A DNA stretch of 9,649 bases, from the NCBI GenBank assembly GCA_949123685.1, contig CASBHZ010000099.1, positions 1-9,649 of the forward strand, read 5' to 3'. Shown one piece after another: positions 92-5,453 of this stretch; within the stretch, counting starts at the first letter, position 1, and each line of letters begins with the position of its first letter. The notes beneath the pieces are model-generated. The model saw only the letters and a list, made by a program, of their open reading frames with translations. It had not been told where the DNA came from and made no database searches. The translations under genes were made by a program, and so were the position numbers. This stretch comes from an uncultured Bacteroidales bacterium. Its GTDB lineage: Bacteria; Bacteroidota; Bacteroidia; Bacteroidales; Muribaculaceae.

Positions 92-199
92 TAACATACT
101 TGTAGCATCTGAATTAGCATTTCAATGCAATATGACATAAAAAATCCACTTCATACACCACGATTTCACAAACAACATAACATATTTAAACCAATCATT

Positions 200-3016
200 A
201 TGATTATTAAGAGAATGTTAAGTGCGGCAATAATGCTTGCAGGGGCATTTGGAGCTTTTGCACAACAGCCGCAAATGCAGCCACTGCCGCTTAATCCGGC
301 AGTGAAACATGGAACGCTGCCTAATGGTCTTCAGTATTTTATTCTTCACAATGAAGAACCTAAAGAGCGTGCGAACTTCTATATCGCACAAAAGGTAGGA
401 TCAACACTCGAAAGTTCCGAACAGCTTGGATTGGCTCACTTCCTGGAGCATATGGCTTTTAACGGAACAAGTCATTATCCAGGTAAGGATATGCTAAATT
501 ATCTTCAGGCTAAAGGCATCCGCTTTGGTGCCGACATTAATGCTTATACGGATTTCGATGAGACCGTGTATAACATAAACAATGTTCCCACTACAGATGC
601 CGCCTTGATGGATAGTGTGTTGCTTGCCATCCATGACTGGAGCTGCGAAATTCTGCTTGAAGAGGATGAAATCAATGCCGAGCGCGGGGTGATTGAAGAA
701 GAATGGCGTTCAAGAAATAATGCCGGTTCACGTATGCTTGAATATGTTCTTCCAAAAATCTACCAGGAGTATCAGTATCAGCAGACTCCAATCGGCAAGA
801 TAGAAGTTATTCGTAATTTTCCACCGGAAGTATTACGTGCATATTATAAAAAATGGTATCGTCCGGATCAGCAAGGTATAATTATTGTCGGAGATTTCGA
901 TGTTGCAGAAATGGAGAAAAAGGTGATTGATCTTTTCTCTCCCATACCTATGCCTGAAAATGCAGCAGAAAGAACTTATCCCACAGTCAGCGACAACAAG
1001 GAACCGATATTCGTTTTCTTTGATGATCCGGAAAGCCAATTCCCACGATTGACATTAAGCTTCAAGACGGAAAAAACACCGTTCGAGATGCGTAACACAC
1101 TTGCCGGTTTCGTACAAGACGAACTTCTTGAATCAATAATAGCCAGATTGATAAACACCCGTTTGGATGAATATAGCCAGAAACCTGAGTGTAAATATGC
1201 TTTCGCACGTGTTGGCTTTGGAAATTATTGGATATCTAAGACAAAAGCGTCATTCACGATTACAGTTGTCGGAAAAACAGAAATGAAAGAGGCCTTTGCC
1301 GAGGCTATTGCAATTATTGCCAGAGCTTGCAAAACAGGATTTACGGATTCAGAGCTTCAGCGAGTGCGCGACACAATGATTTCAAGATATGAAAAAATAT
1401 ATAACGAAAGAAACAAGACAACAAGCGACGCTCTTGCATCTGAGCTTATTCGTCATTTCGTTGATAATGTGGCTACACCTGGCATAGAGACAAAATTCGA
1501 ACTTGCCAAACAGCTTCTTCCCAACATTCCTGTCCAGGCTATAAATCAGGTAGCTGCAACAATACTGACTCCGGAAAATCAGGTAATGGTAATTGATCAG
1601 CCAAGAAAAGAAGGATTCACGGTAGTGACCGAACAGGATATGCTTCCAATTCTTAATAACGCCATGAATGCAGAATATGAAGCTTATGTTGATGAAGTGA
1701 TCACAGATCCTCTTATTGAAAAACTTCCAAAACCAGGAAAAATTAAATCTCAGACATCCGGAAAATTTGGAACAACTGAGCTTGTACTCTCTAATGGCGT
1801 AAAAGTGATTGTTAAACCCACTGATTTTAAGGATGACGAAATACTCATGACTGCATTCAAGGACGGAGGCAAACGCTCTTATCCTGAATCTCAGGCAGCC
1901 AATGTTCTCCTTATGGAAGATGCATACTCTGTAAGCAAATTAGGTAGTTTCGACAATACGAAACTCAGGAAATATCTTGCCGGCAAAATGGCTGGTCTTT
2001 CATTCTCTATCGGAAATACTGTGACCGAGTTCGAAGGCATGAGTTCCGTTAAGGACCTTCCTACGCTTATGGAACTTATATACGCTGCGTTCACGTCTAT
2101 AAATCCGGATCCTGCAACCTATAATGCACAGATGGATCAAGCTCGCACTTTCTTGAAAAACCAAGATGCGAACCCTGACAAGATATTCAACAAGCATCTC
2201 GCAGCAGCAAGATACGGCAACAATCCCATGTTCCAGGAAATTGACATCAACACTCTTGATGCTGCAAACTATCTTGAAATGCTTGACATGATCAAACAGG
2301 CTACAGCCAATGCCGCTGATTACACTTTCATTTTCGCCGGCAATGTTGACATCGATACCCTCAAACCACTTCTCGAGCAATATGTAGCAACACTTCCTTC
2401 ATCAAAGAAAGGGAAGACAGCTGTTAAAAACCTTTCTTCAATCAGTATTGCAAGCGGACAAGTTGTAGACCATTACAAACAGCCGATGCATTCTCCCAAA
2501 TCTCAAGTTTTTGCCATTTCTTCAGGAACCAATGTGCCATATTCAATTGAGAACTCTGTTAAACTAAGCATGATAGGGCAGATCCTGAGCATGGTTTACA
2601 CAGAAACTCTTCGTGAAGAGATGGGCGGCACATATAGCCCCGGGGCAGGCGCGGTATTGAACCCGCATACCGGTCAGTGGATGATTCTATATACATACCA
2701 GACAAACTCTGACATACTCGGCAAGATGGAAGAACGCGCCAATGCAGAATTGATGAAGCTACTGAATGAAGGTGCAAGCGAGAAAGACTTCAACAAAGTT
2801 AAAGAGGCAGCGATGAAACAGTATGAGATAAACGTTCGTAACAATAGTTACTGGACCAACAACCTGCTCATGCTCGAAAAGGGTATAGACGACATAACCA
2901 ATCATAAAGCCGCAATCGAGAATCTAACACTCGCAGACTTAAATAAATTCATGAAAGGTCTCTATAACGGCAAGAACCGTATAGAAGTTATCATGGAAGG
3001 TGTAGAAGCTAAATAA
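200..3016 (+). CDS. Secreted M16 (pitrilysin/insulinase) family zinc metallopeptidase
   Basis: A 938-residue exported zinc endopeptidase, probably degrading peptides in the periplasm. The start at 200 is chosen because it places a signal peptide at the N-terminus (basic MIIKR, then a hydrophobic stretch, cleavage likely after AFA at residue 21); ATG 215 is also possible. The inverted zinc motif HFLEH lies at residues 80-84, and the likely third zinc ligand is a glutamate 77 residues later, in the ERGVIEEEW segment. A second M16 half starts near residue 525 and lacks HxxEH, as expected for the inactive partner domain. It carries an Arg805/Tyr812 pair in LREEMGGTY, spaced like the substrate-binding Arg/Tyr pair of insulysin. 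The length fits the two-repeat, single-chain M16 proteases common in Bacteroidota. The gene has its own promoter and terminator. The natural substrate cannot be read from the sequence. Confidence 0.95.
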   Translation: MIIKRMLSAAIMLAGAFGAFAQQPQMQPLPLNPAVKHGTLPNGLQYFILHNEEPKERANFYIAQKVGSTLESSEQLGLAHFLEHMAFNGTSHYPGKDMLNYLQAKGIRFGADINAYTDFDETVYNINNVPTTDAALMDSVLLAIHDWSCEILLEEDEINAERGVIEEEWRSRNNAGSRMLEYVLPKIYQEYQYQQTPIGKIEVIRNFPPEVLRAYYKKWYRPDQQGIIIVGDFDVAEMEKKVIDLFSPIPMPENAAERTYPTVSDNKEPIFVFFDDPESQFPRLTLSFKTEKTPFEMRNTLAGFVQDELLESIIARLINTRLDEYSQKPECKYAFARVGFGNYWISKTKASFTITVVGKTEMKEAFAEAIAIIARACKTGFTDSELQRVRDTMISRYEKIYNERNKTTSDALASELIRHFVDNVATPGIETKFELAKQLLPNIPVQAINQVAATILTPENQVMVIDQPRKEGFTVVTEQDMLPILNNAMNAEYEAYVDEVITDPLIEKLPKPGKIKSQTSGKFGTTELVLSNGVKVIVKPTDFKDDEILMTAFKDGGKRSYPESQAANVLLMEDAYSVSKLGSFDNTKLRKYLAGKMAGLSFSIGNTVTEFEGMSSVKDLPTLMELIYAAFTSINPDPATYNAQMDQARTFLKNQDANPDKIFNKHLAAARYGNNPMFQEIDINTLDAANYLEMLDMIKQATANAADYTFIFAGNVDIDTLKPLLEQYVATLPSSKKGKTAVKNLSSISIASGQVVDHYKQPMHSPKSQVFAISSGTNVPYSIENSVKLSMIGQILSMVYTETLREEMGGTYSPGAGAVLNPHTGQWMILYTYQTNSDILGKMEERANAELMKLLNEGASEKDFNKVKEAAMKQYEINVRNNSYWTNNLLMLEKGIDDITNHKAAIENLTLADLNKFMKGLYNGKNRIEVIMEGVEAK

Positions 3017-3034: not shown

Positions 3035-3080
3035 TATAAAAATAAGGTCGGACACAACGTTGTTCGACCTTATTTTTATA
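3035..3080. terminator. Intrinsic terminator after the M16 gene, symmetric
   Basis: A perfect 16-bp stem pairs 3035-3050 with 3065-3080. It is extended inward by a G-U pair and three further pairs, leaving a loop of about 6 bases. The GC-rich part (AAGGTCG/CGACCTT) is flanked by an A-run on the left and TTATTTTTATA on the right, so it would work in either direction. It begins 19 bases after the stop codon of the M16 gene. Its last two bases overlap a candidate -7 box for the next gene. Confidence 0.85.
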
Positions 3081-3086
3081 TCTTTG
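3079..3086 (+). promoter_or_regulatory. Candidate -7 box for the M3 peptidase gene
   Basis: TATCTTTG fits TAnnTTTG and is identical to the -7 octamer of the M16 gene. It starts within the last two bases of the preceding terminator. No proper TTTG is found 19 bases upstream; only GTTG at 3059-3062, at a 16-base spacing. If it is used, the mRNA of the M3 gene has a leader of about 220 bases containing the whole 188-bp inverted repeat. I saw no better match nearer the gene. Confidence 0.4.
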
Positions 3087-3107: not shown

Positions 3108-3248
3108 TTATTTAAGTAAGTAATGAAAATTAATCGATATATGTAAGTAATGAAATCTTGCACTATAAAACTTGTTCTTTTTGGCTGTTTTCACCTTGTA
3201 ATTCAGTCGCATATGCCTATATGCTCCTTCATTACGCGGCAAAAACAT
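3108..3248 (-). CDS. Possible 46-residue basic peptide encoded within the inverted-repeat element
   Basis: An ATG at 3248 opens 46 codons ending in TAA at 3110-3108. The peptide starts MFLPRNEGAYRHMRLNYKVK, continues with a lysine-rich part (TAKKNKFYSAR), and ends with two FHYL units nine residues apart, the in-frame outcome of the 27-base duplication. It has no signal peptide, membrane segment or recognisable domain. It covers most of the folded element, on the strand opposite to both neighbouring genes. A -7-like octamer (TATTTTTG, minus strand 3258-3251) sits immediately upstream but lacks a -33 box, and the predicted transcript would start at or after this ATG; an internal ATG at codon 13 exists. 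More likely it is a by-product of the repeat than a gene. If other copies of the repeat keep the frame, that view would change. Confidence 0.2.
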   Translation of the reverse strand: MFLPRNEGAYRHMRLNYKVKTAKKNKFYSARFHYLHISINFHYLLK

Positions 3249-3299
3249 CTCAAAAATAACGGTGTTTTATATGTGCATTAATTTTTATTACTTACTTAA
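3112..3299. repeat. 188-bp imperfect inverted-repeat element (MITE-like or structured repeat)
   Basis: The ends are 23-base inverted repeats, 3112-3134 and 3277-3299, matching at 22 of 23 positions with the remaining one a G-U pair in RNA. Inside them, 3159-3171 (TGCACTATAAAAC) pairs with 3264-3277 apart from one bulged T, with the last base shared with the outer arm. Next, 3178-3183 pairs with 3251-3256, and then comes an apical hairpin at 3186-3247. Nearly the whole segment can therefore fold into one long rod, with 3135-3158 as the only large unpaired stretch. That stretch holds a second copy of the motif TAAGTAATGAAA (3117-3128 and 3144-3155, 27 bases apart). The ends carry TTAA. There is no room for a transposase, so a non-autonomous mobile element or a REP-like dispersed repeat is the best reading; copy number in the genome cannot be seen here. 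Confidence 0.7.
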
Positions 3300-3314: not shown

Positions 3315-5453
3315 ATGAACTATTTTTTTAAATCATTGACAGCTTTAACCATGGTAACATTCGCTGCTTCCGCAACAGGAGCCGTGTCCAATCCATTGAT
3401 TGAAGGATCGAAACTTCCTTACGGCACAATGCCTCTTTCCCAAATTACTCCCGCCCAATATGAAGAGGGTGTGCTTGAAGGTATAAAACTTCAGAATCAA
3501 GAGATAAATGCTATAGTTAGACAGCGTAGCGTACCGACATTTGAAAACACCATAGTTGCCCTTGACAGAAGTGGGGAAGTGCTTAACAGATCCATCCTTG
3601 CTTTAAGTAATCTGGAAAATGCATCAGGAAATCCTGAAATAATGGCTATCCTTGCGAAAGTAACGCCGGCTTTATCCGAACATTCCTCAAACATAATGCT
3701 AAATGAGCATCTTTGGAACAGGGTCAAACAAGTCTACGACAATAAAGACAAAGACAAAAGCCTGACCCCCGAAGATCTCCGGCTTATTGAAAAAACATAT
3801 CTCGGTTTCATACTTTCCGGTGCAGACCTTAAAGGTGCAGACCGTGAAAAATTCCGCAAACTTAATTCGGAATTGTCTGAACTTACTGTCAAATATGGAC
3901 AGAACGTTTCCAACGCGATGAAAGAACCTTCACGACGGATGTGGCTCAAAAAATCAGATCTGACAGGCATACCGGAATCGGTGATTGAATCATATCGAGA
4001 AGCCGCCAAGGAAACATTAGCACAAGAGGGCAAAAATGATGACGAGTCATTATATCTTGTAACGGTATTTGCACCGTCCTATCAACCGTTCATGAAATAT
4101 TCTGAACGCAGGGACCTTCGCGAGCAGCTTTACAGATTGTCAAACAGCCGTAATAATGGAGGGAAATTCGACAACACTGCAATACTTCGCGATATTGCAA
4201 ACGTGCGCCTTGAGATAGCCCAGCTAATGGGTAAGAAAACGTTTGCTGAATATCAACTGCAAACTACAATGGCAAAAACTCCTGAAACCGTAATGGAGTT
4301 TCTTGAAAACCTAAGGAATGCATATACGGAACCTATGAAAGCTGAATTAAAAGAGATTCAGGACTATGCAAGATTATCGGAAGGCAGTGACTTCAAACTT
4401 TCGGCATGGGATTATTCCTATTGGGCAGATAAACTGAAAAATGACCGATATGCCTTCAATGACGAAGACATGAAGCCATATTTTGAATTAAACAACACTA
4501 TCAAGGGGGTATTCGGTCTCGCAACCAAATTATATGGCTATAAGTTCAAGGAAACAAAAGACATTGACAAATATCATCCGGATGTTAAGATATATGAGGT
4601 ATATGAAAAAGACGGAAAACTTCTCGGTATACTTTATGCTGATTTCTTTTATAGGGATGGCAAAAGCCCAGGAGCCTGGATGACAGAGTTTAGAGGTGAG
4701 ACAAAAGATGACGAAGGAAAGAAAAGTATACCTCTCATATCTATCGTATGCAACTTTTCAAAGCCAGTCGGCAATGCCCCCGTGCTTCTCACTCCATCTG
4801 AGGTGGAAACATTCCTGCATGAATTTGGACATGCATTGCATGGGCTTTCATCAGAAGCTAAATATGCATCTCTCAGTGGTACCAATGTAGATCATGATTT
4901 CGTTGAACTGTTCTCTCAGTTTAATGAGAATTATTTGACTGAAAAAGAATACCTCGACAGTTTTGCGAAACATTATAAAACGGGTAAGAAGATGCCACAG
5001 GAGCTGATTAATAAATTCCTGAAATCTTCTCAGTTTGGAGCAGCATATGCTTGCCTGCGCCAACTTGGCTTTGGCTATCTTGACATGGCTTATCACACCA
5101 TAGCATCTCCCTTAAGGGCATCTGCAAATCTCGAAGAGTTTGAGAAGAATGCCCAAGATCCGGTCAGATGTTTTGAAGCAGTGGAAGGATGTATGACATC
5201 TCCTTCATTCGGTCATATTTTTTCCGGTGGATATGCAGCCGGATATTATGGATATAAATGGGCTGAATCACTTGATGCGGATGCATTCGCGGCGTTCAAG
5301 GAAACCGGCATCTTCAATAATAAGACCGCTTCTAAATTCCTTAAGATGCTTCAAGCTGGAGACACGGTGGATCCGATGGAACTATATGTTGGATTCCGTG
5401 GCAAAAAGCCCACTGTAGACGCCCTCATGGAACGTGACGGAATCAAAAAATAA
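3315..5453 (+). CDS. dcp: Secreted M3 family zinc metallopeptidase, peptidyl-dipeptidase Dcp type
   Basis: A 712-residue zinc peptidase of the thimet/Dcp family, which in characterised relatives removes C-terminal dipeptides or cleaves short oligopeptides. The zinc motif HEFGH is at residues 502-506, with E503 catalytic. The third ligand is E531 in HDFVELFSQ. The C-terminal substrate-binding motif FGHIFSGGYAAGYYGY (H634, Y640) is intact. The tail, ending in RGKKPTVDALMERDGIKK, resembles that of E. coli Dcp. The length is normal, with a short N-terminal addition: a signal peptide (MNYFFK, then a hydrophobic stretch to about residue 20-23), which points to the periplasm. The ATG lies 15 bases downstream of the 188-bp element, with no Shine-Dalgarno sequence but an A-rich leader. 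It is separated from the M16 gene by a terminator, so the two peptidases are neighbours rather than an operon. Confidence 0.95.
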   Translation: MNYFFKSLTALTMVTFAASATGAVSNPLIEGSKLPYGTMPLSQITPAQYEEGVLEGIKLQNQEINAIVRQRSVPTFENTIVALDRSGEVLNRSILALSNLENASGNPEIMAILAKVTPALSEHSSNIMLNEHLWNRVKQVYDNKDKDKSLTPEDLRLIEKTYLGFILSGADLKGADREKFRKLNSELSELTVKYGQNVSNAMKEPSRRMWLKKSDLTGIPESVIESYREAAKETLAQEGKNDDESLYLVTVFAPSYQPFMKYSERRDLREQLYRLSNSRNNGGKFDNTAILRDIANVRLEIAQLMGKKTFAEYQLQTTMAKTPETVMEFLENLRNAYTEPMKAELKEIQDYARLSEGSDFKLSAWDYSYWADKLKNDRYAFNDEDMKPYFELNNTIKGVFGLATKLYGYKFKETKDIDKYHPDVKIYEVYEKDGKLLGILYADFFYRDGKSPGAWMTEFRGETKDDEGKKSIPLISIVCNFSKPVGNAPVLLTPSEVETFLHEFGHALHGLSSEAKYASLSGTNVDHDFVELFSQFNENYLTEKEYLDSFAKHYKTGKKMPQELINKFLKSSQFGAAYACLRQLGFGYLDMAYHTIASPLRASANLEEFEKNAQDPVRCFEAVEGCMTSPSFGHIFSGGYAAGYYGYKWAESLDADAFAAFKETGIFNNKTASKFLKMLQAGDTVDPMELYVGFRGKKPTVDALMERDGIKK

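Follow-up and report, generated by a model that had tools for sequence, protein, structure and literature searches.

Inverted repeat between two peptidase genes

The window, which is the whole 9,649 bp stretch analysed here (contig CASBHZ010000099.1 of a Muribaculaceae assembly, GCA_949123685.1), encodes an M16-family and an M3-family peptidase, and the space between the two genes is largely taken up by an inverted repeat. This raises the question of whether the repeat is a mobile element, and of which kind, or a leader belonging to the M3 gene. Comparison of TTAAGTAAGTAATGAAAATTAAT, which starts at 3112 bp, with the reverse complement of the right end showed that 22 of 23 bases were equal, as an earlier note made from the letters of the window had stated, and a repeat search of the window gave inverted arms of 31 nt (3112 bp–3142 bp and 3269 bp–3299 bp) that were 87% complementary. 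The claim of the same note that almost the entire intergenic segment folds as one rod was confirmed. The 188 nt formed a single rod with a folding energy of -58.5 kcal/mol (z -8.5) as plus-strand RNA and -60.0 kcal/mol (z -8.4) as minus-strand RNA, and a z of -8.2 was obtained for the plus strand with DNA parameters; in each of these three folds, 0 of 200 shuffled sequences were as stable. A terminator-like hairpin was present ahead of the repeat, where it had been described (Table 1).

The ORF list of the window contained no ORF of at least 60 aa inside the element, and a search of the window with Rfam 15 at the gathering score identified no family. The same search on the elements of five other loci returned one match, a tRNA, and the best sub-threshold match had an E value of 0.26. 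A second copy of the end sequence in subterminal position is possibly a second transposase site.

Table 1 Features of the window around the inverted repeat
Feature	Position (bp)	Strand	Basis
M16-family peptidase gene	125..3016	+	ORF list, domain match
Terminator-like hairpin after the M16 gene, outside the element	3035..3080	+	Repeat search
TATCTTTG, -7-box-like	3079..3086	+	Read from the letters
MITE (186 bp with its two terminal TA)	3113..3298	.	Bounds from copies in G001, G002, G004 and G005; inverted repeat
Left TA, target dinucleotide	3113..3114	.	TA at both ends in 56/62 copies; single TA at the empty site of a sister copy
Terminal inverted repeat at the left, of (TA)AGTARSTNNTNNAAATTA type	3115..3142	+	Repeat search, comparison with IS630 ends
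End sequence repeated in subterminal position	3140..3155	+	Direct repeat of 3110-3128 (repeat search)
Structured rod core (model R1)	3159..3272	-	108.7 bits, the window copy being among the 29 sequences used to build R1; 14/22 pairs with changes on both sides
Rod tip (GAAGGA-hairpin-GACTGA), with an A-U and a G-C pair flanked by two tandem G.A mismatches	3203..3230	-	
Right terminal inverted repeat	3269..3296	-	Together with TA, 26/30 outermost nt equal to those at the right end of a G001 IS630 (L213)
Right TA, target dinucleotide	3297..3298	.	As for the left TA
M3-family peptidase gene	3315..5453	+	NCBIfam: Dcp and oligopeptidase A as best matches, each scoring under its cut-off

Pairing and strand of the rod core

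The inner rods of 29 elements from several subfamilies were aligned on the minus strand of the window, and this alignment was used to build a model of the core, which we have designated R1. The core rod is approximately 115 nt long. RNAalifold predicted 22 pairs in the 29 rods and the changes on both sides of 14 of them are compensatory. The proportion of paired cells (96.4%) and the covariation score were reached in 0 of 500 partner shuffles and the number of pair types in 1 of 500, a significance that is overstated because the copies are related to each other; when the partner was slid out of register, pairing fell to 31–49%.

The tip of the rod was then compared in a 109-row alignment (A2), whose counts lean to the model because A2 was fitted to R1. 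The A-U pair between the mismatches was replaced by G-C in 9 rows, and the four mismatch positions were G.A or A.G in 93, 102, 99 and 93 rows respectively. Three rows were opposite-strand matches and were set apart for the strand comparison (n = 106). This revealed that the strand carrying the G.A mismatches folds better than its complement as RNA in 104 of the 106 rows, with a mean gap of approximately 10 to 13 kcal/mol per element type, and also in 104 of 106 with DNA parameters (gap approximately 4 to 6 kcal/mol). For the core of the window the RNA folds were -37.0 kcal/mol (G.A strand) and -30.9 kcal/mol (complement). At one locus (L168:2681-2796) the tip is now a perfect palindrome from which the G.A mismatches have gone. 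A promoter within the G.A strand (TATTTTTG) was considered and dropped, as by eye some subfamilies have it and others are without it. A search for the core in open-access papers, which exclude most subscription journals, found nothing.

Copies in related genomes

Copy counts were taken from genomes that encode relatives of the M3 peptidase. At E ≤ 1, 31, 25, 2, 52, 20 and 2 matches were found in G001, G002, G003, G004, G005 and G006 respectively, counts which take in weak and end-only matches. All six genomes carried relatives of the element, G003 with a 28-base end match only; in these relatives the repeat is dispersed and multi-copy. The best match had 86% identity over 147 of 201 bases (G001), and several copies were located at contig ends. 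Four genomes gave 22, 22, 33 and 15 hits to the pattern of the tip and 0 to its reversed control.

The phage and plasmid collections contained no match to the window element; the plasmid collection likewise had no match to a G614 copy, and the phage collection none to a G564 copy. Two IMG/VR contigs, which may be prophage or host DNA, each carried a copy close to the G001 subfamily (L378:12980-13094 and L379:11465-11579). Several variant forms were also seen. Units of 35–38 bp, hardly more than two ends, were present at L190:1993-2027, L185:2443-2480 and L084 (about 411–448), and internally deleted copies of 106 bp at L155–L158. Some of the G004 rods (L108, L123 and L159) had an extra segment of approximately 45 nt with GACGAGT repeats in one arm. 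The copies at L080 and L085 had identical flanks.

Ends and target site

The ends of 62 copies, the window copy included, were delimited from the inner end sequence alone, with no requirement for TA. TA was present at both ends of 56 copies and missing from one or both ends of the other six. At L101 (AA..TT) and L236 (CA..TG) both end dinucleotides had changed in step, as an inverted repeat does and a duplication does not. TTAA had been put forward as a palindromic target site, and a TTAA-target element was rejected on these counts, as TTAA occurred at both ends of only 6 of the 62 copies, the window copy among them, compared with 56 for TA. Since only those 6 copies have a T before and an A after, T 3112 and A 3299, which complete the TTAA in the window, were read as flanking bases outside the element. 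The inverted repeat reported at 188 bp is real; the element defined by comparison is 2 bp shorter.

A clean empty site was found for one sister copy. The site occupied in G001:C13 is a single TA, read straight through, in the orthologous G726:C176, and the copy in G001:C13 was therefore inserted with duplication of TA. In G726 two sites were each covered without a break, this one and another with six extra bases, which represent indels or else the footprint of an excision. A copy nested in L170 was compatible with TA. At the other candidate empty sites (G002 compared with G003 and G005) the junction flanks were too diverged. The alignment of copies, a check suggested in the earlier note, defined the ends, and the empty site showed the TA duplication at one sister copy.

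IS630 transposons with the same ends

Of 20 genomes of M3 relatives, 8 contained IS630-type transposases (Pfam DDE_3, PF13358), and several of these transposases sit in Muribaculaceae elements of approximately 1.1 kb that have the ends of the MITE (approximately 20–30 bp). A transposase gene between shared ends had been proposed as a check on mobility, and both ends were indeed found 950–1350 bp apart at 21 of 44 PF13358 loci, which include fragments and repeats of one place, compared with 0 of 78 M3 loci (mean length 9.2 kb). At L210 and L213 the HTH and DDE_3 domains were encoded in two overlapping frames, as in other IS630 elements. G002 had 25 matches to the element, yet a PF13358 match was absent from it. 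DDE_Tnp_1 was rejected as a partner; its 14 loci had no convincing pair of IS630-type ends and no core.

The window element is a 186-bp non-autonomous IS630-type MITE, new of this kind: it is multi-copy in relatives, has IS630 ends, encodes no ORF of at least 60 aa and has a sister copy with a duplicated TA, so that the MITE-like reading of the earlier note was upheld. We put at roughly 0.9 the probability that the element is an IS630 (Tc1/mariner-like) MITE for which an IS630 transposase presumably provides movement in trans with duplication of TA. The transposase would bind the ends of the MITE in trans, excise the element and then insert it at a TA, and the target TA would become duplicated upon insertion. 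Such mobilisation in trans is the most plausible reading.

The closest known counterpart is RUP of Streptococcus pneumoniae, described as a 107-bp MITE of IS630-Spn1 (PMC2229807). Both elements are small, intergenic, dispersed and base-paired and have IS630-like ends and a TA insertion site; unlike the 186-bp window element, RUP is 107 bp long and belongs to another phylum, and the account of RUP in that review (PMC2229807) gives no further motif, whereas the window element has a conserved strand-specific core. By analogy with RUP as outlined there, the window element would work in the same way, with movement in trans presumed. ERIC and Correia/NEMIS, which were compared by description only, are also short, have TA ends and form long RNA stem-loops that have been proposed to affect mRNA, but the 2007 review, in its description of them, names no IS partner (PMC2229807).

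Neighbouring genes and the M3 leader

The closest M3 relative found was from a Muribaculaceae isolate, and most of the named relatives were Muribaculaceae, Porphyromonadaceae, Bacteroides or Bacteroidales records. The -7-box-like sequence ahead of the element (Table 1) fits the Bacteroidetes -7 box, TAnnTTTG. If this putative box is the M3 promoter, the element would lie in the M3 leader, between the box and the M3 start codon, and an RNA rod there may affect expression; were the leader transcribed through the element, the rod may alter mRNA stability or the start of translation. This position is what speaks for the element acting as a leader that regulates the M3 peptidase gene in cis, which we nevertheless regard as highly improbable, since elements of like kind occur elsewhere in many genomes and R1 found the core upstream of M3 at 0 of 78 M3 loci (L001 and a few other contigs end at M3). 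The only one of these loci matched by R1 was L054, where the core is not upstream of M3. An ancestral M3 leader is refuted by the same 0 of 78, and a recent effect of the element on M3 is possible. The earlier note had named a segment that is single-copy and kept only with M3 as the finding that would speak against mobility; what was found was a segment that is multi-copy in relatives and upstream of M3 at none of the 78 loci.

At L002, where M3 is 85% identical, the M16-terminator-M3 order is kept with a short leader and the element is absent. The window element's own empty site is represented by this diverged locus alone. At L003 (about 3880–3980) the M16-M3 gap contains a different, G+C-rich palindromic stretch.

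The neighbours of 58 copies were surveyed, L083 and L247 being one place. None of the 58 lay within an ORF of at least 90 aa; the two neighbours both lay on the G.A strand for 17 copies and both on the opposite strand for 16. With no orientation bias, a function tied to the transcript of a neighbour is not supported.

The core in elements with other ends

In the family of G001, R1 identified the core in 179 of 297 genomes; among 393 genomes drawn over the order it did so in 17, of which G001, G023, G027 and G042 are shared with the 179. IS630 was seen in 21 of the 297 family genomes. The core was not commoner with IS630 (13 of 21 genomes) than without it (166 of 276), which counts against a simple partnership of the two; R1 also counts elements of other types, and repeats are lost from draft genomes. 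At the IS630 loci from the genomes of M3 relatives the core was absent save for one weak match (L217, E 0.056).

Two further kinds of element were distinguished by reading the ends. Type 2 elements have the ends GARNCTGTTT... and one or two cores each, and 8 of 9 copies in G564 were flanked by a 3-bp duplication of TTA or TAA; the 36 rows assigned to type 2 include some that are unplaceable. Type 3 ends, AGGTNRGTTCTRTAAATT (start AGGTNRGTTCT), were present at six loci, and no consistent duplication was seen among the loci read. A scan of 20 single-end regions, from which only two ORFs were put to Pfam and neither proved to be a transposase, gave no transposase with type 2 or type 3 ends. Ends of IS5 type, GAGACTGTTGCA and ACGTGAGTTCGATATAA, are given for the Porphyromonas gingivalis elements MITE239, MITE464/PgRS and BrickBuilt in PMC4596501. 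These MITEs are also from Bacteroidales and their IS5-type ends, as printed there, resemble the type 2 and type 3 ends by eye, whereas the window element has IS630 ends. A TAA-flanked type 2 element at L174:2495-3060 has a truncated IS630-type element on one side and a full one on the other, an insertion of one element type into or next to another.

Inverted double cores were found at L260, L275, L286, L307, L308, L319, L320, L138, L134, L190 and L054. Such double-core elements are BIME-like and approximately 330 bp long in G027 and G001. The earlier note had offered a REP/BIME-like repeat as the alternative to a MITE, and the double cores agree with that part of it. In its full form, this reading has a RAYT (Y1) transposase mobilise the repeat by recognising its single-stranded hairpin tip, the IS630-like ends being secondary. 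The core shares with REP/BIME and RAYT systems a palindromic, intergenic nature, a hairpin that folds on one strand with strand-fixed mismatches, and inverted pairs in G027, G001 and others; Y1_Tnp matches occurred in all six genomes, many in frames of approximately 320–495 aa. The core was absent, however, from the examined flanks of all 16 Y1 loci, the copies are bounded by IS630-type ends, mostly with TA, and the GTAG/CGTC tags described in PMC3733652 were not seen by eye. We consider movement by a RAYT improbable. Y1-like frames of approximately 320–495 aa with a common C-terminal VSPFI...EKxxR... were observed at L142–L144, L147–L149 and L151–L154 (six genomes) and are possibly domesticated RAYT-like proteins.

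The core resembles a structured, strand-specific module joined to the ends of two, perhaps three, Bacteroidales transposon groups. As a folded middle is common to elements with different ends, this middle may serve a function in its own right, as the conservation of the core also suggests; candidates are host-factor binding, an RNA fold and assistance with transposition. Most simply, the structured middle would have been retained as the ends were exchanged for others, and for this the element or the host would have to benefit. A fuller version of this, in which the core is a self-standing module, active as RNA or ssDNA, that spreads through Bacteroidales by repeated re-pairing with unrelated transposon ends, and a candidate host or Y1-type protein bound to the G.A tip benefits the composite element, is put forward tentatively and at less than even odds.

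The core could also be merely the inherited middle of one ancient MITE, its mismatches frozen and under no selection. Template switching can make the two arms of a palindrome alike, the relatedness of the copies inflates the shuffle results, and the tip of L168 is without the mismatches, all of which are in keeping with such an origin. Against it, both sides of the outer pairs vary but the G.A positions are kept, and the one-strand fold persists in elements with other ends. We think passive inheritance rather unlikely, and we infer selection on the fold of the core.

Significance of the element and its core

Several Muribaculaceae genomes carry tens of matches between genes, and as some of these are at contig ends, draft assemblies may break there. 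As a MITE alone, the window element is ordinary; its interest lies in the common core. If the core has been exchanged between transposon groups, such MITEs would be more than shrunken transposons and would contain a part kept for a purpose. If that is true, the G.A tip would be a handle for finding the protein or process involved.
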